Shown one piece after another: positions 4,738 through 33,727 of a stretch of DNA of 34,390 bases (positions within the stretch are counted from its first letter, which is position 1; each line of letters opens with the position of its first letter). Under the pieces are notes generated by a model, which saw only the letters and a program-made list of their open reading frames with translations, ran no database searches and was not told the origin of the DNA. The DNA lies in contig NZ_JACXWX010000051.1 in assembly GCF_014764505.1 (NCBI RefSeq), positions 1 to 34,390 of the forward strand, in the 5' to 3' direction. This stretch comes from Phormidium tenue FACHB-886. Its GTDB lineage: Bacteria > Cyanobacteriota > Cyanobacteriia > Elainellales > Elainellaceae. A program made the translations under genes and the position numbers.

Positions 4738-4985
4738 GTTATCGTTCCATGATTAAGTAAACAAATGCTCTATTTAGATATGTCGATCTGAAATTACCAA
4801 ACTCATAGCTTTTCCCTCCAAATCTTAAATTTTTTACATAGATCGTAGTAGCCAAAGTAAGACAGGTTAGGTTGTTAACATATTCAACTTACAGTGGTAT
4901 GGCATAACATATTCCCTGAGCCGGACTGGGTCAAGAGTTAATCTGGAATTGCTAGTTGAGCAACCAAGGGAGAACCTTTCTTCTT

Positions 4986-5967
4986 CGAAACTGTCAGAAC
5001 TGGGTACTCGGCTTGAGGGCAGCAGCCCCGACTTGATAGACTGCTACTGCCCCCAATCTCTGCTCCATGAAGGCTCCATGAACTGCCCTGATTGTTACTC
5101 AGCCCATACCACTCGCCTGCAACGCACGACGAAGCTGAGTTATGCCATGTTTCGCTGCAGGGATTGTCATCGCACCTTCAACGAACGGACTGGCACACCC
5201 TTCAACTTTATCGAGGTGCCCACCGATACTGTGTTCCAAGTCCTGCTGTGCCGGTTGCGCTACAAGCTGAGCTTTCGAGATATTGCCGAATTCTTCCTGC
5301 TGCGAGGGTTCGAGTTCACCCATGAAACCGTGCGAGATTGGGAAGAACGCTTTGCTCCGATATTTGCCCAGCAGTTAAGAGCCAAACGCCAAGGAAAGGT
5401 GGGCAAGACTGGTTTGTGGACGAAACGTACATTCGAGTCGGCGGTCGGTGGTGTTACTTGTATCGAGGCATCGATGAATACGGAGATTGAGCCGATGTGA
5501 GGTTAAGCGAGAAGCGAGACATGGAAGCGGCTAAAGCGTTTTTTGCTCAAGCGTATGAGGTGGCAGAACAATCACCACAACGAGTAGCGACCGCTGGACA
5601 CAGGAGCTATCCCTGAGCTATAGCAGAAGAACTAGGAGAAGCGGTTGAACATGAGGTCAGGGATTGCAGAAGGAACCCGATTGAGCATAGCCATTGAGGG
5701 ATCAAGCAACGGTATTATCCAATGTTAGGATTTGGAGCGTTTGGATCAGCGCGGCGATTTTGTCAAGCATATGATGAGGTAAGCAACTTTATGAGACCCC
5801 AGCGCTATACGACAGAAGTAGTGTCTCTAGCTAAAAGAAGAGAACGATTTACAGAACGAGTCAGTGAACTACAAGTGATCTTCCAAACTGCTTAACAAAG
5901 AAAAAGGAAGGGAAGATATGTTTATGAAAAATAGAAAAGATTTGAATACTCAGTTCTGACAATTTTG
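4986..5967 (+). mobile_element. IS6-family insertion sequence, copy 1 (inactive)
   Basis: A 24-base imperfect terminal inverted repeat is visible: 4986-5009 against the complement of 5944-5967, matching at 20 of 24 positions around the core TGTCAGAACTG. The outer limits may be one to three bases shorter. Between the ends lies one degenerate transposase of IS6 (IS240-type DDE) family with an N-terminal zinc ribbon. I found no clear target-site duplication. A related copy in the same orientation lies at about 28.9 kb, so the two bracket the catabolic island. Confidence 0.75.
5078..5895 (+). pseudogene. IS6-family transposase, frameshifted and with several stops
   Basis: Reading from ATG 5078 gives a zinc ribbon (CPDC, then CRDC), the helix-rich IS6 N-terminus FQVLLCRLRYKLSFRDIAEF and the FTHETVRDWEERF block. 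Compared with the copy at 28.9 kb, one base is missing in the stretch GGCAAGACTGG near 5401-5411, which throws the frame just before the catalytic WFVDETYIRV segment. In the shifted frame, stops interrupt the DDE domain at about 5488, in the segment matching YPRAIKEGL, and in the segment matching EQSHRGIK. The frame ends at TAA 5893-5895. No functional transposase can be made from this copy alone. Confidence 0.85.
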
Positions 5968-6036: not shown

Positions 6037-8775
6037 CTAAGCTTGCAGTTTAAGGCTCTCCCAGACTCTTTCTGGCGTCATGGGAAGTTGGGTGAGACGA
6101 ACCCCCGTAGCTTGAGCGACAGCGTTGGCGATCGCGGGTGCCATGCAATTCGTGGTAATTTCTCCAACCCCCTTAGCGCCAAAAGGACCATGAGGATCAG
6201 TTGATTCAATCAACAGTGTATCCATTGGAGGAACATCTTCTGCAATTGGAATTCTGTAGGTCCGTAAAGAGGGATTGCAAAGCTGTCCTTGTTCATCCCA
6301 TATCAATTCCTCAGATAGAGCATATCCCAGCCCCATGACTGTGCCTCCCGTAATTTGTCCATGACAAATCCTGGGATTGATAGCAGTGCCCAAATCAAGA
6401 GCGTGTACTGAACGGAGAACTTTAATTTTCCCCGTTTCTGTGTCAACCTCAATTTCAACGCCCTGAACAGCAAAGGTCATGGAGCTTTGATCTGCTGCAT
6501 ATTCAACCTCGGCAACTAAATTCTGTTGTGCAACAATTTGAGCGAGTGATTGAAGCGAAATTTCTTGCTCGGAGGCTTGCAGGGATGCTCCAGTCAAGGT
6601 GATATGGTCTGGCTGAATTCCCCAAAGTTTTCCGCTGGCTTCCAATAATTGCGATCGCAGTTGCTGAGCTGCTAACTTCACTGCTTGTCCAGAGATGTAA
6701 ATGGTGCCAGATGCATAGACTCCCGAATCAAACGGTGTTTGCAAGGTATCGCCTGAAATTAAATCAATTTCTGTCACAGTTGTATTGAGAACTTGAGCTG
6801 CAATTTGTCGTAAGGTTGTCTCTGAGCCAGTTCCAATATCTACAGCGCCTGTCCTCAGTTCGTAACGTCCGTTCTCACTGAGAGAGAGTTTGACGCGCGC
6901 AATATGGATTTTAGAGATTCCACTCCCCTGCATTGATATTGCAAATCCAATCCCTCGTCGCACATGCTGATCATGATTCGAAGTGTTGTTTAAAGGGCTG
7001 TCAAATGCCTGTAGGATCTGATTAATGCAATCTTGAACTTTATAGCTACCGGTCAGATGAAATTTATGTTCACCTCTCCCAATAGTGATCACTTCTTCAG
7101 GACGAATAATATTCTGCAACCGTAACGTGAGTGGGTTGAGATGGAGCTTTCTTGCAATTTCATCTATCTGCGACTCTACAGCAAATGTTCCTTGTGTAAC
7201 CCCATATCCTCGAAAGGCCCCAGCAGGGACTGTATTGGTATAAACCGACTGCCCCATGAATCGTTGATGGGGACACCGATAGAGTCCTAGCGGAAATTGT
7301 CCACACAGGTACACTACGCCTTCACTGTGATTGCCGTAAGCTCCAGTGTTTGCAATGACCTGCATATCCTGTGCAACCAATGTGCCATCTGCCTTAACCC
7401 CAGTTTTGAGGTGAATGGTCATGGCATGACGGGTATTGGTGGCCGTGAATTCTTCGGTGCGGGTCAATTCCCATTGCACCGGTCGTCCGGTTTGCAAGGT
7501 TGCCCAGGCACAGAGATCTTCACTCAGAATTTCCTGTTTATTGCCAAATCCACCCCCAATTTTTGCCTTGAAGACACGGATCTGCCTGGGGTCCATGCTG
7601 AAAAGCCTTGATAGAACGCGCTGGCAATGGAAGGGCACCTGGGTGCTGGAGCGAATGACGAGGGTGCCATCGGGTTCAAGCCAGCTGATACTGGTATGCG
7701 GTTCTAGATGGATGTGCTGAACGGGTGGGAGGTGATAGGTCTTTTCCAAAATGAAATCAGCTTCAGCGAAACCCTGTTCAATATCCCCGTGTTCCATCAC
7801 AACTTGACATGCAATATTCCGCTGTCGGTCATAAATCTGGTACGATTCTGGCTCATCATGAATGATTTCGTCGAAGCTGGTCATTGCGGTGAGGGCATCC
7901 GTCACATGGGGCAGAACCTCATACTCAACCTCAATGAGTTGACAGGCTTGCTCTGCGATCGCCACCGATTCTGCAACGACCGCCGCTACGCGGTCGCCCA
8001 CAAACCTGACCTTGTAGTCTAACAAATAGTGATCATGCGGGTCTGGGACTGGATCAGCAAGCCCTGATGTACTGTAAGCGTAACGGGGAACCTCGTTGTA
8101 GGTAAGAACCAGGTGGACACCTGGCAGTGCTTTTGCCTTATCTGGATTGATGCGACGGATACGAGCATGGGCATAGGGCGATCGCAACACCTTCAAATGC
8201 AATAATCCAGGCGGCGACCAATCCGCTGTGTAGGCAGGGGTTCCCGTGACAATGGTGGTTCCGTCCTGTTTGGGAATATTCTGTCCAACACTGCCTTGAA
8301 TCGTTTCCTCCATTGCTTCACCGTGGGATGGTTCAGAGGTGGCAAGAATACTCTCAACAATTGCCTGATACCCTGTGCAGCGGCATAAATTACCTCTGAG
8401 TGCAGACCGAATTTCCGGTTCGGATTCAGCCTTTAACTGGGCTGCACTCATAATCATGCCCGGTGTGCAAAAGCCACATTGAAACCCCTGCTTCTCTAGA
8501 AATGCTTGCTGTATTTTAGTCAGAGAATTAGTTTGGGTTAGCCCTTCAATCGTTGTAACGTGATGTCCGGAGACTTGTACGGCTGGATAGATACAGCTGT
8601 GGATCGGGACATCATCCACCCAAACAGTGCAGCTTCCGCAGTCGCCAGATTCACAAACGCGACGCACACCTACCCAACCTAGATGACGCAGTAGGCTGAG
8701 CAGGCTAGTTCCGGCAGAACAGGTTTCAGTGTAGCTTTGTTGATTGATCTGGAAAGACAGAAGCTGTTGTTGCAT
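6037..8775 (-). CDS. XdhD-like fused iron-sulphur / molybdopterin dehydrogenase (xanthine dehydrogenase family)
   Basis: The 912-residue enzyme fuses two subunits of the molybdenum hydroxylase family. Residues 1-160 bind two [2Fe-2S] clusters: C41, C46, C49, C61 for the plant-type cluster and C100, C103, C131, C133 for the helical one. Residues about 175-905 form the molybdopterin domain, with GGGFGNKQE, the arginine motif GAFRGYG and the catalytic-glutamate motif GAKGVGE near the C-terminus. E. coli XdhD has the same FeS-Mo order and similar length, with separate FAD (YgfM) and maturation (MocA) proteins; both counterparts occur here at 25.5-27.0 kb. The position equivalent to bovine Glu802 appears to be Gln, so a purine substrate is plausible but not certain. 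I took ATG 8775; a TTG at 8787 is possible. It is the last gene leftward, 172 bases after gntR. Confidence 0.9.
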
Positions 8776-9721: not shown

Positions 9722-9731
9722 TTGTATACAA
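9722..9731. promoter_or_regulatory. Putative GntR operator TTGTATACAA (autoregulation site)
   Basis: The sequence is a perfect 10-base palindrome in the short gap between the upstream permease gene and gntR. FCD-type GntR proteins bind such palindromes; the Agrobacterium regulator Atu1419 is recalled to use ATGTATACAT. The core TGTATACA recurs twice in the central regulatory region, and TGTACACA precedes the second Rieske gene. Confidence 0.65.
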
Positions 9732-9770
9732 CTATGCAGATACCAGGTCATACAGCTAGTCAATCCTCTT

Positions 9771-10673
9771 CTAGCTCCGGTTAAATGGAACTGCCAGGGC
9801 TGCAGGGGGACGATGACGTCCCACAAAACCTGTAACCGCCAGAAATGCCAGGAGATAGGGCAGCATCACAAGTAGCGAGATGGGAAACCCAATCCCTAAA
9901 GCCTGGGCCTGAAATTGTAGAGCGATCGCCCCCCCAAATAGCAGGCAGGCTAACAGTGTGCGATAGCCGATCCAGCCTCCAAAAATGACAGCGGCAATCG
10001 CCAGATAGCCCCGTCCGTTGGTCATATTTTCTGTAAAGGTGTGGATATCGCCGAGGGACAAAAAAGCGCCTGCCAATCCAGCCATGGCTCCTGTAAACAA
10101 AACGGTGTAGTAGCGGATTGCGTTCACCGACAGGCCCATTTGATCTGCGGCACGGGGGTTCTCGCCCACTGCTCGAATGGACAGTCCCCAGGCGGTTTGA
10201 TCCAAGATAAACCAGGTGATCAACATCAGGACGAGTCCTCCATAGACCAAAAGATTTTGCTCAAATAAAACTCCTAACCCCGGTAGGTTATGCAGTCCGG
10301 GAATACGTAGTCTTTCAAATCCTGACACCATCTCATTGGATAGGGCTCCAAAAATTTCTCGGTAAGCGTAGGTGGTTATTCCCAGAGCCAGAATATTCAG
10401 ACCAATGCCGACGACCAACTGGTTGGCCTGTACAGAGACGCTCAGAAATGCTTGCAGAAGGGCAAAAATGACGGTTGCTGCGATCGCACATAGCACTCCA
10501 AGCAGGGGATTGCCACTGACATAAGACCCTAAGGCTCCCGTAAACGCCCCGACCAGCATCATTCCCTCCAGGCTGAGATTTAATACGCCTGCCCGTTCAC
10601 TGACTAACTCCCCGGTTGCAGCTAAAATCAACGGCATAGCCAAACGCAGGGTTGCATCAAAAAAATCATTCAT
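9771..10673 (-). CDS. ABC transporter permease, nucleoside/purine type (NupQ/YufQ-like)
   Basis: This 300-residue polytopic protein is of the permease family shared by sugar and BMP-type nucleoside importers. Landmarks are the N-terminal TGELVSERAGVLNLSLEGMMLVGAF, the cytoplasmic coupling segment TAWGLSIRAVGENPRAADQMG and TNGRGYLAIAAVIFGGW. The ATG at 10673 overlaps the preceding permease stop by 8 bases, showing translational coupling. It would pair with the 352-residue permease and the duplicated ATPase upstream as one importer. The family is firmly nucleoside/nucleobase-like by the company of BMP-type binding proteins; the exact cargo is not shown. Confidence 0.9.
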   Translation of the reverse strand: MNDFFDATLRLAMPLILAATGELVSERAGVLNLSLEGMMLVGAFTGALGSYVSGNPLLGVLCAIAATVIFALLQAFLSVSVQANQLVVGIGLNILALGITTYAYREIFGALSNEMVSGFERLRIPGLHNLPGLGVLFEQNLLVYGGLVLMLITWFILDQTAWGLSIRAVGENPRAADQMGLSVNAIRYYTVLFTGAMAGLAGAFLSLGDIHTFTENMTNGRGYLAIAAVIFGGWIGYRTLLACLLFGGAIALQFQAQALGIGFPISLLVMLPYLLAFLAVTGFVGRHRPPAALAVPFNRS

Positions 10674-11724
10674 GGTTGTACTCCTCAGTGAAGTAGTAGG
10701 CTCCTGCAACTGAGACGACTACCAGTCCCTGAATAATCAGGACGATTGCAGAAGGAACCTTTGCCGAAATTTCCATATTGATGCCACCAGAGCGGAGGAA
10801 TCCGAAGAATAGGGCTCCGAGGATTACACCAAGCGGGGAACCGCGAGATAGTAAGCCCACTACCAGTCCGTCAAATCCGTAACCTGACGAAAATCCTTCC
10901 CGTAATAGAGCCAACTCACCCTGAACAAGAATTGCACCTGCCAATCCGCCTAACCCTCCCGAAAAGGCTAGTGCCCAGATTAATAAGTAATTTGTTGGTA
11001 ACCCTGCCCTGCGAGACGCTTTTTTGTTCAAGCCGACGGCTTTCAGACGCAAACCAAAGGCTGTTTTAGCGAGTAGGGTTCCGACTAGGATTACAGCTAC
11101 AAGAGCCACTAAAATGCCGATATGCATCGGTGAATTAGCAAATAACAGTGGCAGCTGAGTGTTCTCTGGCAGGTCTAGAGAGGTTGGCAATGTGGCAGCA
11201 GATGTGCGAGGTTGTCGCAGGAGATACGTTTCCTGGACTGACCAGGAAACGAGTTGAATTGCAATGAAAGAGAGGAGCAACGTGCTAATCACTTCGTTTG
11301 TTCCGCGTCGCACCTTGATAAATCCTGCAATCCATCCCCAAATGGCTCCTCCGGTAAAGCCTGCTAATAAAGGGATGAGCACCGATAATCCAAAGGAAAG
11401 ATGGTGGGCTCCGTTGAGGGCAACAGCGGTAGATGCTAACCCCCCTAAATTGATCTGTCCTTCACCACCCACGTTTGTTAAGTTCGCGCGAAACGCTAAA
11501 ACAAAGCCAATTCCCACGAGCATGAGCGCAACCGCTCGGTTGATGGATCGCCCAATCGCATAGGGAGAACCGACCATGCCAGCCCAAAAAGCAGCGATCG
11601 CCTCAGATACTGAAACTCCCGTCAATGCAATAAGTCCCAGTCCAACTCCTAATGCAAAGCATGTTGCGAGAATGGAAATGAGAATATCATTCGGAATATA
11701 TTTGGTGATGGAATTTGATGACAA
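10666..11724 (-). CDS. ABC transporter permease, nucleoside/purine type (NupP/YufP-like)
   Basis: This 352-residue permease has eight to ten hydrophobic segments. Family landmarks are the MLVGIGFVLAFRANLTNVGGEGQINLGG block, the loop KVRRGTNEVISTLLLSFIA, the coupling segment KTAFGLRLKAVGLNKKASRRAG and the later SSGYGFDGLVVGLLSRGSPLG. The frame requires a TTG start at 11724, supported by AAGGAG about 9 bases upstream; the ATG seen between them is out of frame. It follows the ATPase stop by 6 bases and overlaps the next permease, so the ATPase-permease-permease block is one tight operon. Confidence 0.9.
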   Translation of the reverse strand: MSSNSITKYIPNDILISILATCFALGVGLGLIALTGVSVSEAIAAFWAGMVGSPYAIGRSINRAVALMLVGIGFVLAFRANLTNVGGEGQINLGGLASTAVALNGAHHLSFGLSVLIPLLAGFTGGAIWGWIAGFIKVRRGTNEVISTLLLSFIAIQLVSWSVQETYLLRQPRTSAATLPTSLDLPENTQLPLLFANSPMHIGILVALVAVILVGTLLAKTAFGLRLKAVGLNKKASRRAGLPTNYLLIWALAFSGGLGGLAGAILVQGELALLREGFSSGYGFDGLVVGLLSRGSPLGVILGALFFGFLRSGGINMEISAKVPSAIVLIIQGLVVVSVAGAYYFTEEYNHE

Positions 11725-28986: not shown

Positions 28987-29903
28987 ATGAACTGCCCTGA
29001 TTGTTACTCAGTCCACACCACTCGCTTGCAACGCAGGACAACTTGGGGTATGCCATGTTTCGCTGCAAGGATTATTGTCGCACCTTCAATGAGCGCCCCG
29101 GCGCCCCCTTCAACTTTATCGAGGTACCCACCGATATCGTCTTTCAAGTGCTGCTGTGTCGCTTGCGCTACAAGTTGAGCTTTCACGATATTGCCGAATT
29201 CTTCCTGCTACTAGGGTTCGAGTTTACTCATGAAACAGTACGGGATTGGGAAGAACGCTGTGCTCCCCTATTTGCCCAGTAGTTACTACCGGGAGCGGTA
29301 TTTGGTTAACACATCAACTCTGTAAAAGCCTTGCTTTAAGGCACCCCTGGAAAAACTGTTCACTATAACCCGCTCCCGTTAGTAAGAGCCAAACGCCAGG
29401 GAAAGGTAGGCAAGATTTGGTTTGTGGACGAGACGTACATCCGTGTCAAAGGTCAGTGGTGTTACTTGTACCGAGGGATAGATGAGGATGGCAATCTAGT
29501 CGACGTGAGGTTGAGCGAGAAGCGAGATATGGAAGGGGCAAAAGCGTTTTTTGCTCAAGCGTATGAGGTAGCAGAACAGCCGCCCGAACGAGTAGCAACG
29601 GATGGACACAGGAGCTATCCCAGAGCGATTAAGGAAGGACTGGGGGAAGGGGTGGAACACGAGGTCAGGGACTGCCGAGGAAATCCGATCGAACAGAGTC
29701 ATCGGGGAATCAAGCAACGCTACTATCCGATGCTAGGGTTTGGAGCGATTGAAAGTGCGACACGATTTTGTCAAGCATTTGATGAAGTGAAGCAGTGTTT
29801 GCGTCCCAGAGCAAGAATGGCAGAGTTAGTGTCTCTATCGAAGCGAAGGGAACAATTTGTTAAACGAGTGAATGAATTGCAGGATTTATTTCAAGCGATC
29901 TAA
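28987..29903 (+). pseudogene. IS6-family transposase, broken by frameshift, stop and MITE
   Basis: From ATG 28987 the frame gives MNCPDCYSVHTTRLQR, then loses one base relative to copy 1 near 29036-29050. The shifted frame continues CRDY-like residues to APLFAQ, where a CAG has become TAG, and directly after that a 97-base element interrupts the gene. The catalytic half is still fully open from about 29400 to TAA 29901-29903 and includes WFVDETYIRVKGQWCYLYRG, RVATDGHRSYPRAI and EQSHRGIKQRYYPM with the DDE residues. Thus the DDE domain is intact but detached from its DNA-binding N-terminus. Confidence 0.85.
29286..29382. mobile_element. 97-base MITE with TA target duplication
   Basis: The element lies inside the IS6 transposase at the site reading AGTTAAGAGCC in copy 1. 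Its ends, CTACCGGGAGCGG and the complement CTAACGGGAGCGG, match at 12 of 13 positions. It is flanked by TA at 29284-29285 and 29383-29384, and removing it plus one TA restores the copy-1 sequence exactly at the joint. A TA duplication points to mobilisation by an IS630/Tc1-mariner transposase, which is not in this window. The interior shows no coding capacity. Confidence 0.85.
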
Positions 29904-29949
29904 CCGAAAATAGGAAAGAGGAAGTTTCTGATGATAAAAGAAAAATCAT

Positions 29950-30096
29950 CGTTCCTTCCCCACTGATGAATCTGCCTTGAAGGTTATCTACTTGGCAATT
30001 GCCAATATCTCTAAAAAATGGACGATGCCGATTCGAGATTGGAAAGCAGCTTTGAATCGTTTTGCTATTGAATTTGAAGGCAGGTTTCCAATGTAA
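29950..30096 (+). pseudogene. IS256-family transposase, C-terminal remnant
   Basis: The frame from 29950 reads RSFPTDESALKVIYLAIANI, then SKKWTMPIRDWKAALNRFAI and EFEGRFPM before TAA. The KKWTMPIRDW...NRFAIEFEGR pattern is the standard C-terminus of IS256 (mutator-type) transposases. Only about 48 residues survive. The following TTTGACACAAACTACTTTAC and AATCCCC at about 30107-30130 resemble the right terminal repeat of such elements. The rest of the element is missing, its place being taken by the IS6 copy. Confidence 0.75.
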
Positions 30097-30169
30097 TATC
30101 CCCTTTGACACAAACTACTTTACAATCCCCTGTAATGCTTAGCTAACGGGGTTTTTGTCTACCCGACAC

Positions 30170-30340
30170 CTACCCGACACCCGAACCTTGATAAATTTCA
30201 ACACCTAAAGCTCTCCATTCCCTATCCTGCCAAATGCCTTGATTAAGAATCACTGCATTATGGACACGGCTACGTCTCCAAGTACGTAATGCTGAACTTG
30301 CAGTAGCTTGTCCCAAATCACCGCAAGCATTCTCATATCC
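30170..30340 (-). pseudogene. CAP/SCP-domain protein, C-terminal remnant
   Basis: On the minus strand a 57-codon open stretch between stops reads GYENACGDLGQATASSALRT, then WRRSRVHNAVILNQGIWQDR and EWRALGVEIYQGSGVG. The W..S..HNAVILN...W....WRALGV-IYQG pattern is that of the CAP (SCP/PR-1) domain C-terminal half. A TAA at 30341-30343 closes it on the upstream side and no start exists, so it is a fragment. Two tandem copies of CTACCCGACAC at its 3' end supply successive stop codons. The rest of 30097-30435 holds only the IS256 end and no other gene. Confidence 0.55.
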
Positions 30341-30435
30341 TTAACCTTTGTAGGCAGGGCCAAGCCACTAAGGTGCATTCCACATGCAAGAGGCTATGTC
30401 CCGTTTAACTTTGAGGTGTTTCTTTGACTGGCAAT

Positions 30436-31920
30436 CTAATTTTTACCACTGCTTGACTTAGAACCTGTGACCGAAGAAACGGTTTGAGTCATATTATTCA
30501 TTACTGATTTAGCACGTTCCCCGACCGTAAGATTCTGCGCTTCAACAGAACCACCTGTAACAATGACACCATTATTCAAAATAGTGTCTTGTCTTGCTCG
30601 TAGTTCGGAAGTATCAATATTATGAGCATCAAGAAAATCGATAATACTATCTAAAATCTGGCGCTCAACAAGTTTCAAGTACATTTCCTTGTCTAACTTC
30701 TGAAAATAGTGGTTGTATAAGTTTGAAGCTGCTAATTCTCGAATACTCGTTGAAGCACCATAGTCAAACATGGGATTTTCACGAATTAATCGCCGATTAG
30801 ATCTTCGTTGATTCCAACGGGAGATTGGACGAAAGAGTTCCCCACTCAGCAGAAAAATAGCTAATGGAAAGAGGACCACTGTCTTCACAAACGCCTCTTG
30901 AAGTATCTGTATCAATTGCCGCCAAGTAGGATTAGGCTGAATTCCATCGATCTTGCGATATTCCTGCTTCAGTGGTGGCAAAAAAAAGTAACTGGCTTCA
31001 ACAAATAGATTCTGACGAAGTTTAAGAAAACGTAGAAATACTGACAAGATGATTTCTCCTCGCCAACTAATTATGCGAATACATTTGTAGTGCCGAATTC
31101 CCTCTAATTGACCTCCGATAAACTCTTTTAAGGTAGAAGGGGCAACTTGCGTCAAAGGGCGACAAAACGGATCAGGCAGTAATCTCTCATCACCTCGAAT
31201 TTCTTGACCATTTACAAAAATTTTGTCTTGAATAATTGTTCCTTGCAGATGCAGTTTTTTGATATCTGAATCAACGTAGGAGTATAACTCCTCAACAGTA
31301 AAAGGCTCAGGTTTCTGGGCGACTCTCATTTCTTCTTTTCCTTTGCTTATATCCAAAGTAAAAGACCATCCGCCAATATCTGTACCTGAACCGACAAAAG
31401 GTGAAAAGCCACTATAGATAACTACGTTGCATTCTTCTTCGTTTATAACTCCAGATAGCTTACGACGTATCTTAGCTTCAGTTTCAGGCGCTAAAGTTAC
31501 GCTATCTGGGTTGAAGTTCTGCTTAAGCAAAGATTTAGCAATAATTTGATATCGAGTTATCCAAGTCTCAAATACAACTGCTGCCCATGCTAATAAGAAG
31601 TAGAAGGAAAAGAAAGACAAAAATATACTGAGAAAAAGAGCAGAGATAGGATCGGTATAGCCGTATTCAAATCCATAACTGATTTGTCCATAGGCACTTG
31701 CCCAAGCTATTACAAAAAGGATCGATATTATGATATTCCGAATCAACTCTCGGCGTTTGGCATCAAGACAGTGTTTAGCAACAGCTAATAAATCAACACC
31801 TGCTGGAATGCTGACAACACGATACTCTTCATCTAAAATCTTCTCCAGAACCTGAGTCCGAAAGTTACGATCAATATGGGCAGCAGCGCACAAATAGCGT
31901 GTAGTGTTAGACTTCTTCAT
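30436..31920 (-). CDS. Large membrane protein of unknown family with C-terminal glycine motif
   Basis: This 494-residue protein is not one I can name. The N-terminus RYLCAAAHIDRNFRTQVLEK and IPAGVDLLAVAKHCLDAKRR precedes two strong membrane segments at about 60-78 and 92-117. A soluble part follows, with VVIYSGFSPFVGSGTDIGGW at about 167-186, and a third hydrophobic segment at about 346-362. The C-terminus at 451-470 carries GVIVTGGSVEAQ-LTVGERA, nearly the same as the N-terminus of the small protein encoded just upstream. From memory, the N-terminal and PFVGSG patterns resemble large hypothetical membrane proteins common in actinomycetes. It is leftward and separated from the small gene by a strong hairpin. 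Confidence 0.75.
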   Translation of the reverse strand: MKKSNTTRYLCAAAHIDRNFRTQVLEKILDEEYRVVSIPAGVDLLAVAKHCLDAKRRELIRNIIISILFVIAWASAYGQISYGFEYGYTDPISALFLSIFLSFFSFYFLLAWAAVVFETWITRYQIIAKSLLKQNFNPDSVTLAPETEAKIRRKLSGVINEEECNVVIYSGFSPFVGSGTDIGGWSFTLDISKGKEEMRVAQKPEPFTVEELYSYVDSDIKKLHLQGTIIQDKIFVNGQEIRGDERLLPDPFCRPLTQVAPSTLKEFIGGQLEGIRHYKCIRIISWRGEIILSVFLRFLKLRQNLFVEASYFFLPPLKQEYRKIDGIQPNPTWRQLIQILQEAFVKTVVLFPLAIFLLSGELFRPISRWNQRRSNRRLIRENPMFDYGASTSIRELAASNLYNHYFQKLDKEMYLKLVERQILDSIIDFLDAHNIDTSELRARQDTILNNGVIVTGGSVEAQNLTVGERAKSVMNNMTQTVSSVTGSKSSSGKN

Positions 31921-31963
31921 GAATTTCCTGTAGGGAGAAAATTACGTACAAGCAGGTTTACCA

Positions 31964-32006
31964 CTTAAAAATCCCCTAAAGACTTTTAGCGTAGGGGATT
32001 TTTAAG
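31964..32006. terminator. Strong hairpin terminator, probably bidirectional
   Basis: A perfect 15-base stem (31964-31978 against 31992-32006, with CCCC/GGGG cores and A/T-rich outer ends) closes a 13-base loop. The T-rich outer arm gives a U-run on both strands. It lies just downstream of the small-protein stop and should limit readthrough into the membrane-protein gene. Confidence 0.75.
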
Positions 32007-32033
32007 TTTAAAGTTGGATCAGCATCTACTCTG

Positions 32034-32423
32034 CTACAACAAAGAGATTCCTGTAACTACTGCAATCGCCTTTTGCAAAAGTCCTATCTTTTCGACAATT
32101 TCCACTACTGAACTTACTGACTCTTTGACTGCATTCAGCAGTCCCTTTAAAGTCAGTTTACTTGGTTGTTCTTTCTTGACTTCCTCAGCAATTTGCTGAA
32201 CAGCTTGGGATACTTCATCATAATCAGCAATTTGAGGACGATGAGATTCAAGAGACGTAAGTAGTTCCGTGATTGCCTTGGCTAAGTCCTCTTTTCCTTC
32301 AGATTGAAACTCATTGGCAAGATTATAAGTAGTTTGAATCGCTTGAGCACCTTTACCAACGGTAACTTGTCCTGCATTGAAAGTGCCACCTGAAACAACC
32401 ACACCTTCATTGTTCTGACTCAT
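32034..32423 (-). CDS. Small helical protein with N-terminal glycine motif (unknown function)
   Basis: This 129-residue protein begins MSQNNEGVVVSGGTFNAGQV and TVGKGAQAIQTTYN, a short beta-rich motif (residues 7-26) shared with the C-terminus of the membrane protein at 30.4-31.9 kb. The remaining 100 residues are predicted helices with coiled-coil character: FQSEGKEDLAKAITELLTSL, then YDEVSQAVQQIAEEVKKE and a hydrophobic C-terminal helix LLQKAIAVVTGISLL. Similar GG-x-(F/V)-xG/A-x-VxVG stretches at the head of small helical proteins occur in multi-domain signalling or conflict systems of actinomycetes and cyanobacteria, as I recall. No enzyme motif is visible. It is followed by a strong terminator. 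Confidence 0.75.
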   Translation of the reverse strand: MSQNNEGVVVSGGTFNAGQVTVGKGAQAIQTTYNLANEFQSEGKEDLAKAITELLTSLESHRPQIADYDEVSQAVQQIAEEVKKEQPSKLTLKGLLNAVKESVSSVVEIVEKIGLLQKAIAVVTGISLL

Positions 32424-32547
32424 AGGGTTCTCCCATACATCAATAGCAGTTTGCTCTTTTATTATGCCTGCGAAGTGAAAATCATAAAATAACCCGTGAG
32501 GGTACTTCCTAATATTGATCTATGACCATAGAATCACAGCAACCTGC

Positions 32548-32574
32548 ACACTCTAGATCTACTTCCTAGAGTGT
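32548..32574. terminator. Hairpin overlapping the end of a small frame
   Basis: ACACTCTAG and CTAGAGTGT form a perfect 9-base stem with a 9-base loop. The stem includes the stop codon of the minus-strand frame at 32566-32697 and is followed on the plus strand by TTCTCT. It lacks a long T-run, so termination efficiency is uncertain. Confidence 0.4.
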
Positions 32575-32697
32575 TTCTCTTGCGGGTACTAAAGCAGGCT
32601 GGAACGCTACCACCAGAACAAATATCGCCAAGGCAATGAAGAACGAAAACAGTTTAAGAGGAAGGGGCGATCGGTTTACTAAACCATCAGGGTACAT
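32566..32697 (-). CDS. Possible 43-residue single-span membrane peptide
   Basis: From ATG 32697 the frame reads MYPDGLVNRSPLPLKLFSFF, then IALAIFVLVVAFQPALVPAR and ETL. It has one convincing membrane helix between a short basic N-terminus and a polar tail. A degenerate related DNA sequence lies at about 33786-33940 beyond the DUF421 gene, where the frame is broken by a 4-base gain near the PDG codons and by stops. Similarity between the two copies suggests the peptide was once a real gene. No ribosome site is obvious and the call is tentative. Confidence 0.35.
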   Translation of the reverse strand: MYPDGLVNRSPLPLKLFSFFIALAIFVLVVAFQPALVPARETL

Positions 32698-33190
32698 CTC
32701 TGATCGCCTAGCACAGTGTGCCCACCGCTGCTGCTTCCATCTCATGGAGTGCGGGGCTAATGTTGTTTGAAATAGCCGAAAGGACTGCAAGTGGAGGCTT
32801 TAAGGCTGCGGGGTCGATCGGCGTCGACTTGTGGAACCGCTCTCTAACTGCATGAAAACTGCATGGTGAGCTGTGCGATCGCGCCAAGTAAAAGGGTTCG
32901 CGTTGCCGCTGTTGCCGGAGGATTCGAGATTGAGCTGCCCCTGGGCGCTCGCTGGGCAGTATGGAAGGTGACAGGGCGAACCACAATGATGCCAAGTGCC
33001 CGCTCAGCGGCAATTCCGATCGCCTCAACCGTTCCAAAAAGGTTTTTCCTGTCTCCATCCGAGCCAGTACGCACTTTTGTTTGCTTGGGTTGACCTGGAT
33101 CTAGAATGCCTGCGCGAGGGACTTCCCATGTAACACTAATACTGCTGTTGTGTTAATAGCAAGACAAGCGCGTAAACTTCTTAAACACTC

Positions 33191-33727
33191 ATGAACTCAC
33201 TATTCCAGATTGATTGGCAACAGCTCTTCTTTCCCCACGTCTCCATCTTGGAGATGATTCTGCGGGGATCGATCGTTTACCTCATGCTGTTGGGGATTTT
33301 GCGCTTCATGCCTAGCCGCCAAGTCGGAACGGTAGGCGTTGCTGATCTGCTTGTGGTGCTGCTCTTTGCCAATGCTGTTCAGAATGCAATGGTGAGTAGC
33401 TATTCGTCGATTACGGATGGCTTCGTTCTCTTAATCACGCTCGTTTGCTGGAGCTACCTTTTCAATTGGTTAGGCTACAGGTTTCCCCGCTTTCAGCGCT
33501 TTCTTAGCCCATCGCCTTTGCTACTAGTCAAAGATGGTGAAGTGATTCAACAGAACCTAGAAAGAGGGTTGATTAGTAAACGTGATTTGATGAGTCAGCT
33601 GCGTCAGCAGGGCGTTCACAGTCTGAACAAAGTAAAGAAGGCGTATATTGAGGGGGGTGGACAGATTAGCATCTTCATCGACGACGATTTAGATGAGGGT
33701 GATACCTCCGAGCAGCAACTGGAATGA
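33191..33727 (+). CDS. DUF421 (YetF-like) membrane protein
   Basis: The 178-residue protein has the DUF421 architecture: three N-terminal membrane segments (about 20-40, 50-68 and 75-95, including LRGSIVYLMLLGILRFMPSR and VGVADLLVVLLFANAVQNAM) and a cytoplasmic domain beginning PLLLVKDGEVIQQNLERGLI with SKRDLMSQLRQQGVHSLNKV. The VADLLV..L.ANAVQNAM motif and the KDG segment are diagnostic. Bacillus members YetF and YfjT-type proteins are linked to spores and stress, but the molecular function is not settled. The C-terminal acidic tail (DDDLDEGDTSEQQLE) is typical. A weak hairpin, CCGTTT-N5-AAACGG at 33734-33750, follows the stop without a T-run. Confidence 0.9.
   Translation: MNSLFQIDWQQLFFPHVSILEMILRGSIVYLMLLGILRFMPSRQVGTVGVADLLVVLLFANAVQNAMVSSYSSITDGFVLLITLVCWSYLFNWLGYRFPRFQRFLSPSPLLLVKDGEVIQQNLERGLISKRDLMSQLRQQGVHSLNKVKKAYIEGGGQISIFIDDDLDEGDTSEQQLE

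Follow-up and report, generated by a model that had tools for sequence, protein, structure and literature searches.

Amyloid signalosomes of the BASS type, reportedly defined by Dyrka et al. in J Mol Biol in 2020, are the bacterial systems against which the gene pair described below is best compared. In the published accounts, as excerpted, adjacent genes encode proteins with a common short motif in which Gly, Val, Ala, and Asn abound, such signalosomes are reported from cyanobacteria, and CHAT is found among their effectors (PMC7889193; PMC8086366; PMC9815663; PMC12261475). The RHIM/PP core is given as G-(I,V)-Q-(I,V)-G in the relevant section of PMC7885112, and the excerpted account of EAD/death-like systems has small helical adaptors that are thought to bring effectors to the core by homotypic contacts (PMC8195603). 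According to passages of one review, searches for amyloid signaling have been biased to NLR/executor architectures, and the same passages ask whether bacteria have signaling amyloids in NLR-independent pathways (PMC7889193).

The window analyzed here, a stretch of 34,390 nucleotides that is one contig of an 8.93-Mb genome, holds two neighboring minus-strand genes, whose open reading frames a preliminary description made from the sequence alone had placed correctly. One encodes M, a 494-aa membrane protein with a C-terminal motif (30436–31920; ORF list and profile search), and upstream of it lies the gene for S, a 129-aa protein with an N-terminal motif followed by a five-helix, DUF5955-like domain (32034–32423; ORF, Pfam, and AlphaFold2). 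The motif copies occupy 30496–30576 in M and 32331–32411 in S, both on the minus strand (motif profile A4, E = 5.3e-13 and 1.6e-12, respectively), and read NNGVIVTGGSVEAQNLTVGERAKSV in M and NEGVVVSGGTFNAGQVTVGKGAQAI in S, with M residues 449–473 matching S residues 5–29. Direct reading confirms the pattern first described, GV(I/V)V(T/S)GG(S/T)-x2-A-x2-(L/V)TVG-x2-A, at M 451–470 and S 7–26, where 10 of 20 positions are identical. BLASTP aligns M 449–493 with S 5–44 (30.4 bits, E = 1e-5), and this is the sole significant match between two proteins that were rightly called otherwise unrelated, the next match having E = 2.7. The gapped local alignment of M and S scores 69, a value that none of 500 shuffles of S reached (maximum 52). 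Chance similarity is rejected by the BLASTP value and the shuffles alike, and the match stays significant even if some hundreds of implicit ORF-pair comparisons in the window are allowed for. Elsewhere in its own genome the motif does not recur, these two sites being all that a motif profile of 27 positions detects at E ≤ 0.01.

The likeness of this pair to BASS, which we draw from the published descriptions as excerpted rather than from BASS1–10 profile scores, lies in its layout: both consist of adjacent genes with a short motif shared at opposite termini and a helical domain on one side. They differ in the partner, for in BASS one of the two is an NLR, a STAND NTPase whose N-terminus bears the motif, whereas M/S has no NLR and a membrane protein of no family found stands in its place. 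Specifically, M has no family in Pfam, NCBIfam, PADLOC, or the PDB sequences (the last as profile A5), and no NTPase family match in Pfam (best TraD_N at 0.019, sub-threshold). The helical side differs as well: Bell proteins, in the descriptions as excerpted, carry the motif at the C-terminus, whereas in S the helical domain comes after it. As for the motif itself, RHIM, PP, and BASS3 likewise have short glycine-bounded V/I strands, and the S motif of two relatives (G028 and G303) reads G-I-Q-V-(S/T)-G, while on direct reading the RHIM/PP core is absent from M 451–457 and S 7–13, where the window has G-V-x-V-x-G-G. Pfam includes RHIM, and a Pfam scan of the window pair to E 10 returned no RHIM-type family. 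The EAD/death-like systems resemble M/S in their small helical adaptors but make contact via a helical domain where M/S has a matched beta-motif, and have a MoxR/vWA core where none was noticed in the window. Two-gene tag pairing is already known from BASS, and M/S would be a variant of it in which a membrane protein stands in place of the NLR.

Co-occurrence, on which the preliminary description had staked the pairing, is borne out across genomes. The M profile matches 9 of 388 genomes of the class, eight of which hold the protein body (G000, G110, G008, G028, G303, G188, G312, and G038) and one, G021, the motif alone. The S profile matches 27 of the 388, and its seven strongest matches (E 2e-16 or better) all adjoin M; the other 20 are weaker, G021 again by the motif alone and the rest by the helical part, often reaching into the preceding segment and often within longer proteins. 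A close S is present in seven of the eight M genomes, adjacent every time (P = 3e-14 for all seven S genomes falling among the eight by chance, a guide only as it ignores genome relatedness), and in G312 the partner of M is a 140-aa protein whose helical part is weakly like S (E = 7e-6). Closer in, among 36 sampled genomes of the order, M occurs in three and full-length S in those same three, and family-level searches around G303, G188, and G038 gave matches in known genomes only (2 of 42, 1 of 63, and 1 of 2). Throughout, G110 and the contig L009 are treated as one genome, and weak copies may be missed since the whole-genome searches score part of the first-look candidates (4 for M in many genomes, at most 11 for S, and at most 21 for the motif).

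Gene order and partner vary among these loci. The order is S-M in the window genome (G000) and G110, M-S in G008, G028, G303 (where M is split between two frames), G312, and G038, and divergent in G188. At a ninth locus (L010), from a Nostocales MAG, M is followed by a 238-aa CHAT protein (PF12770, 2.2e-6) that stands in place of S and bears the same N-terminal motif; direct reading finds in it the strings HLCGH and NTCYS, which we take to be the catalytic pair. The window pair itself has no CHAT match in Pfam.

The motif is also rare, which disposes of the concern that it might be too common to imply pairing: across the 388 genomes the 27-position profile yields 14 sites at E ≤ 0.01. Twelve of these are strong (3.3e-9 or better), 11 lying in M/S pairs and the remaining one in G021. 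G000, G110, G028, G008, and G303 carry a single site in each of the two genes and no other, as does the L010 genome; the S motif of G188 escapes the profile, as do both tags of G312 and both of G038. The G021 site lies in the middle of a TPR protein that also has a hydrophobic C-terminal stretch (L030, 3243–4676; window-type motif, E = 3.3e-9) and adjoins a P-loop ATPase; the M body finds no match in that genome.

When M tails were scored against partner heads all-against-all over the nine loci, eight of the nine within-locus pairs exceeded all 500 shuffles, the exception being the G038 pair, whose 45 lies below what shuffling can reach (maximum 57). In three of the nine loci (G028, G312, and G038), the highest score of the row belongs to the cognate pair. 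Over eight loci (near-duplicate G110 omitted), the cognate sum is reached by 38 of 40320 permutations; within the six main-class loci, 38 of 720 do so, which gives no significant preference for the cognate partner. The main-class tags thus look interchangeable, and neither these permutations nor the row's-best counts support a pairing code that would tell main-class loci apart. By these scores the tags fall into classes, with G312 using another class on both proteins: its two tags, whose match was first spotted by eye before scoring, give 84 with each other and 18–33 with the other eight loci, while its M scores 50 against the segment before the helical module of an unlinked protein (L057). 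The bodies of the G312 and G038 M proteins are identical at 292 of 578 residues (45% in whole-length BLASTP), yet their tails align over 16 residues only, with a score of 24; the two thus carry dissimilar tags, each matching best with its own neighbor, though the G038 match is weak alone.

The helical module of S extends well beyond the pair. CHAT proteins can end in it (three by Pfam), and so can proteins in which hydrophobic stretches occur alongside pentapeptide-like repeats (one by Pfam, the rest by reading); by reading, a glycine- and asparagine-rich segment usually precedes it. Large repeat proteins ending in the module were seen in L039, L040, L042, L043, L045, L057, and L008 (L008 Pfam-tested). 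We assembled 20 helical-module loci, from 18 of the 19 other S-profile genomes (one with two sites; G311 omitted) plus G019, some of which end at contig edges, and took as testable those in which, no more than 300 nt downstream, the same strand holds an ORF of 200 aa or longer, as is the case in 10 of the 20. In seven of these 10 the tags match, i.e., the neighbor's N-terminus resembles the segment before the helical module, and by Pfam all seven neighbors belong to STAND families (NB-ARC one, NACHT two, of which one falls below its curated cut-off, and nSTAND1 four). In a mechanical test over all 20 loci, none of 200000 permutations reached the cognate sum; the cognate partner tops its row in five of the seven, and one non-cognate partner scores higher in L094 and L097. 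No tag match was found in the other three testable loci (L087, L090, and L096), and the NACHT neighbor of L090 shares the helical domain instead of the tag. L079 (4941–11976) is a dense conflict-type locus: it has a CHAT plus TRADD-like protein, a tag-matched NB-ARC protein, and finally a protein combining CHAT, TIR, and AAA. By analogy, the tagged helical-module/STAND pairs resemble the NLR-with-effector BASS signalosomes, as far as the excerpted sources describe these (PMC7889193; PMC8086366; PMC9815663). The window pair follows the same tag logic with the same helical module as these STAND/NLR loci, M replacing the NLR.

Which side of the membrane the M motif occupies matters for any such scheme. 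The structural model of M is poor (mean pLDDT 51), and hydropathy gives an N-terminal hydrophobic hairpin (31570–31746, minus strand; peak windows at residues 59–77 and 99–117). Per 15 residues, K/R number four before and zero after the first segment, and zero before and three after the second; because the positive residues flank the hairpin outside, we place both the N-terminus and what follows the hairpin on the cytoplasmic side. The window M also has a third stretch of hydrophobic residues, at about residues 339–363, that is absent in the M of L010 and G188; in the window, six K/R in 15 residues follow it, which disfavors a simple membrane crossing there. From the hairpin charges and the third stretch together, the C-terminal motif of M is most likely cytosolic.

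One branch of the family hints at what may lie upstream of M. The G312 M starts with an FHA domain (Pfam, 3.2e-8), and this region aligns with the G038 M, in which Pfam itself calls no FHA. In both genomes a divergent neighbor gene lies beside M, and the two neighbors are 33% identical; Pfam finds SH3 in both and a kinase match in that of G038 (6.2e-10), the kinase-like neighbor in G312 having SH3 alone. An FHA domain together with a kinase-like neighbor suggests a phospho-signaling input upstream of M in this branch, the FHA/kinase-like genes having been seen in two of nine loci (the M of G110 and G303 lay outside the Pfam scan).

We propose, with a probability of roughly 60%, that M and S form a receptor and adaptor/effector pair that meets through a homotypic beta-motif, an NLR-free relative of the BASS-type two-gene clusters of multicellular bacteria. 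A cue would change or cluster M in the cytoplasmic membrane, and the clustered cytosolic motifs at the M C-terminus would then template the N-terminal motif of S, or that of the CHAT protease in one relative, a pairing of motifs that the sequence comparisons support. The assembled motifs would in turn gather S helical domains or CHAT proteases, whose proximity would set off an output: with CHAT attached one would guess at proteolysis, and with S attached membrane or adaptor action would be possible. The parts of this proposal differ in strength. Matched-tag pairing of M and its partner is well supported, amyloid-like cross-beta templating would be the likeliest form of contact, and a defense or death role for the pair is possible.

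The pair appears, on one comparison, to move as a block of ~2.04 kb. In blastn of window positions 29501–33200 against L009, similarity (84.3% over 2042 columns) covers 30405–32444 only, i.e., both genes plus short edges, and fourfold-degenerate divergence from G110 is 0.29 for M and 0.35 for S as against 0.63 in a 1021-residue rpoB stretch; the GC contents of M and S (39.3 and 40.5%) lie below that of the window (48.2%). We infer travel as a small block from the low divergence, the sharp edges, and the low GC together. These signs of horizontal transfer, along with the sparse distribution, fit a dedicated anti-phage defense pair of abortive-infection type, as do the CHAT partner in L010 and the helical module, which adjoins NLR genes and resembles the PADLOC candidate PDC-M14B (1.2e-8), mainly in its C-terminal part (159–262 of 267). 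We nonetheless regard a dedicated defense role as somewhat unlikely, since the M proteins of the window and of L010 have no PADLOC match, no defense genes were recognized by reading among the window neighbors, and the FHA/kinase-like branch suggests other kinds of signaling. The preliminary description had offered defense as one role for the pair and a mobile-element graveyard as its setting. By reading, the neighbors are of purine/nucleoside type plus IS6 remnants, and the PDC-M14B likeness of S is mainly to one part of that protein; the IS remnants fall outside the unit, as the sequence ceases to resemble that of the nearest relative where the pair ends.

A second alternative sees in the motif a small ordered beta element (e.g., a beta-roll or a strand-swapped oligomer) and in S a constitutive subunit of M in fixed stoichiometry, without amyloid-like templating. 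The motif is short and glycine-rich with alternating small and hydrophobic residues, the two-site genomes hold one tagged partner only, and both genes are common to the nearest relative as one block, all of which would suit such a complex. The models leave the motif unstructured: AlphaFold2 gives S five helices (mean pLDDT 83), with the helical part at residues 24–124 (32052–32354, minus strand) and ten-residue blocks of 85–96 from residue 31 on, while S residues 1–21 are below 50, and the motif is below 50 in both single-chain models, so that the shared beta structure once suggested for the two proteins finds no backing there. The helical part matches DUF5955 in Pfam at 1.8e-5, below the curated cut-off (25.5 bits vs. 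27.1). The S model has no Foldseek match at E ≤ 0.001, the search retrieving generic helical bundles, among which the coiled-coil domains of plant NRG1 and Rx are noise (E 1.8 and 2.9); its best VIA match is a designed all-alpha protein (Z 9.3, rmsd 2.8 over 96 residues), and S profile A6 finds only weak matches among PDB sequences, mostly designed proteins and keratins (best E = 0.002). A fixed complex is unlikely in our judgment, given that the partner is exchangeable (CHAT in L010), that gene order is free, and that tags of broadly this kind link STAND/NLR genes to helical-module proteins, some of which carry CHAT; on these same three grounds an inducible signalosome fits better.

Codon sharing bears on how the two motif copies came to match. 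In G028, 18 of 25 motif residues are identical between M and S and only four of these 18 share a codon, from which it follows that the match is kept at the protein level, pointing to probable selection on the protein match itself. Shared codons among identical motif residues are likewise few in G312 (3/12), G008 (3/10), L010 (4/11), G110 (4/10), and the window (5/11), and recent DNA duplication or gene conversion is disfavored in these and in G028, though not in G303, where 8 of 13 are shared; the G038 count (2/21) comes from hand-placed ungapped segments and is uninformative, and G188 was left out. Both genes have been kept functional, as dN/dS against the G110 homologs is 0.126 for M and 0.073 for S. 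That the motif is a relic of a split or duplicated motif-bearing gene with no present pairing function is highly improbable: a motif-like segment and the helical domain do occur in one chain elsewhere, making a split possible, and G303 has its shared codons, but the motif is constrained (dN/dS 0.057 in M and 0.100 in S, 26 codons each), the G028 match is mostly without shared codons, and both G312 proteins carry another motif class.

The receptor–adaptor reading is itself weakened on several points: the motif is unstructured in both models and the RHIM/PP core is absent; the main-class tags look interchangeable, the G038 pair lies within noise, and the G312 M reaches its score of 50 with L057; most of the identical motif residues of G303 share their codons; and the FHA/kinase-like genes are seen in only two of nine loci. 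Of the original idea, in which a membrane protein and a small helical one are joined by an assembly tag that both carry, the tag endures on the strength of co-occurrence, rarity, and the matched tags of G312; a shared beta structure is likely and a defense role possible. The bolder reading, that this is NLR-independent bacterial amyloid signaling in which M, coupled in one branch to FHA and a kinase-like gene, templates exchangeable partners (a helical adaptor or a caspase-like CHAT protease) and the motif classes change in step on both proteins, falls short of an even chance, and we advance it tentatively. Still, the M/S family offers a concrete candidate for NLR-independent signaling, with two-gene units, a membrane protein as the putative receptor, and an exchangeable partner, and the loci with like and unlike tags are ready-made cognate and non-cognate sets for studying the partner choice of motifs.

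The spacer between S and M holds a terminator-like hairpin with a U run (31960–32010, minus strand; –22.5 kcal/mol, z –6.6), which may end part of the S transcripts and so lower M relative to S; a pattern scan for terminators with a loop limit of 3–8 listed none, and the corresponding G110 spacer hairpin is weak (z –1.5). Elsewhere in the window, positions 6037–28595 hold what looks by reading like a cluster for taking up and breaking down purine/nucleoside compounds; it includes two sets of ABC transporter genes, genes resembling xanthine dehydrogenase, and two oxygenases of the Rieske type. IS6-type transposase remnants lie at 4949–5500, 29001–29282, and 29424–29903; the last, the one remnant scanned, resembles NCBIfam transpos_IS6 (3.4e-33, just under the cut-off), and the ORFs at 4949 and 29001 have similar protein text. 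In the nearest relative, L009 carries two tandem, translation-identical copies of a small-gene pair (9730–10291 and 10480–11041), and one of these small genes ends in the same dozen residues as a neighboring 1030-aa gene.
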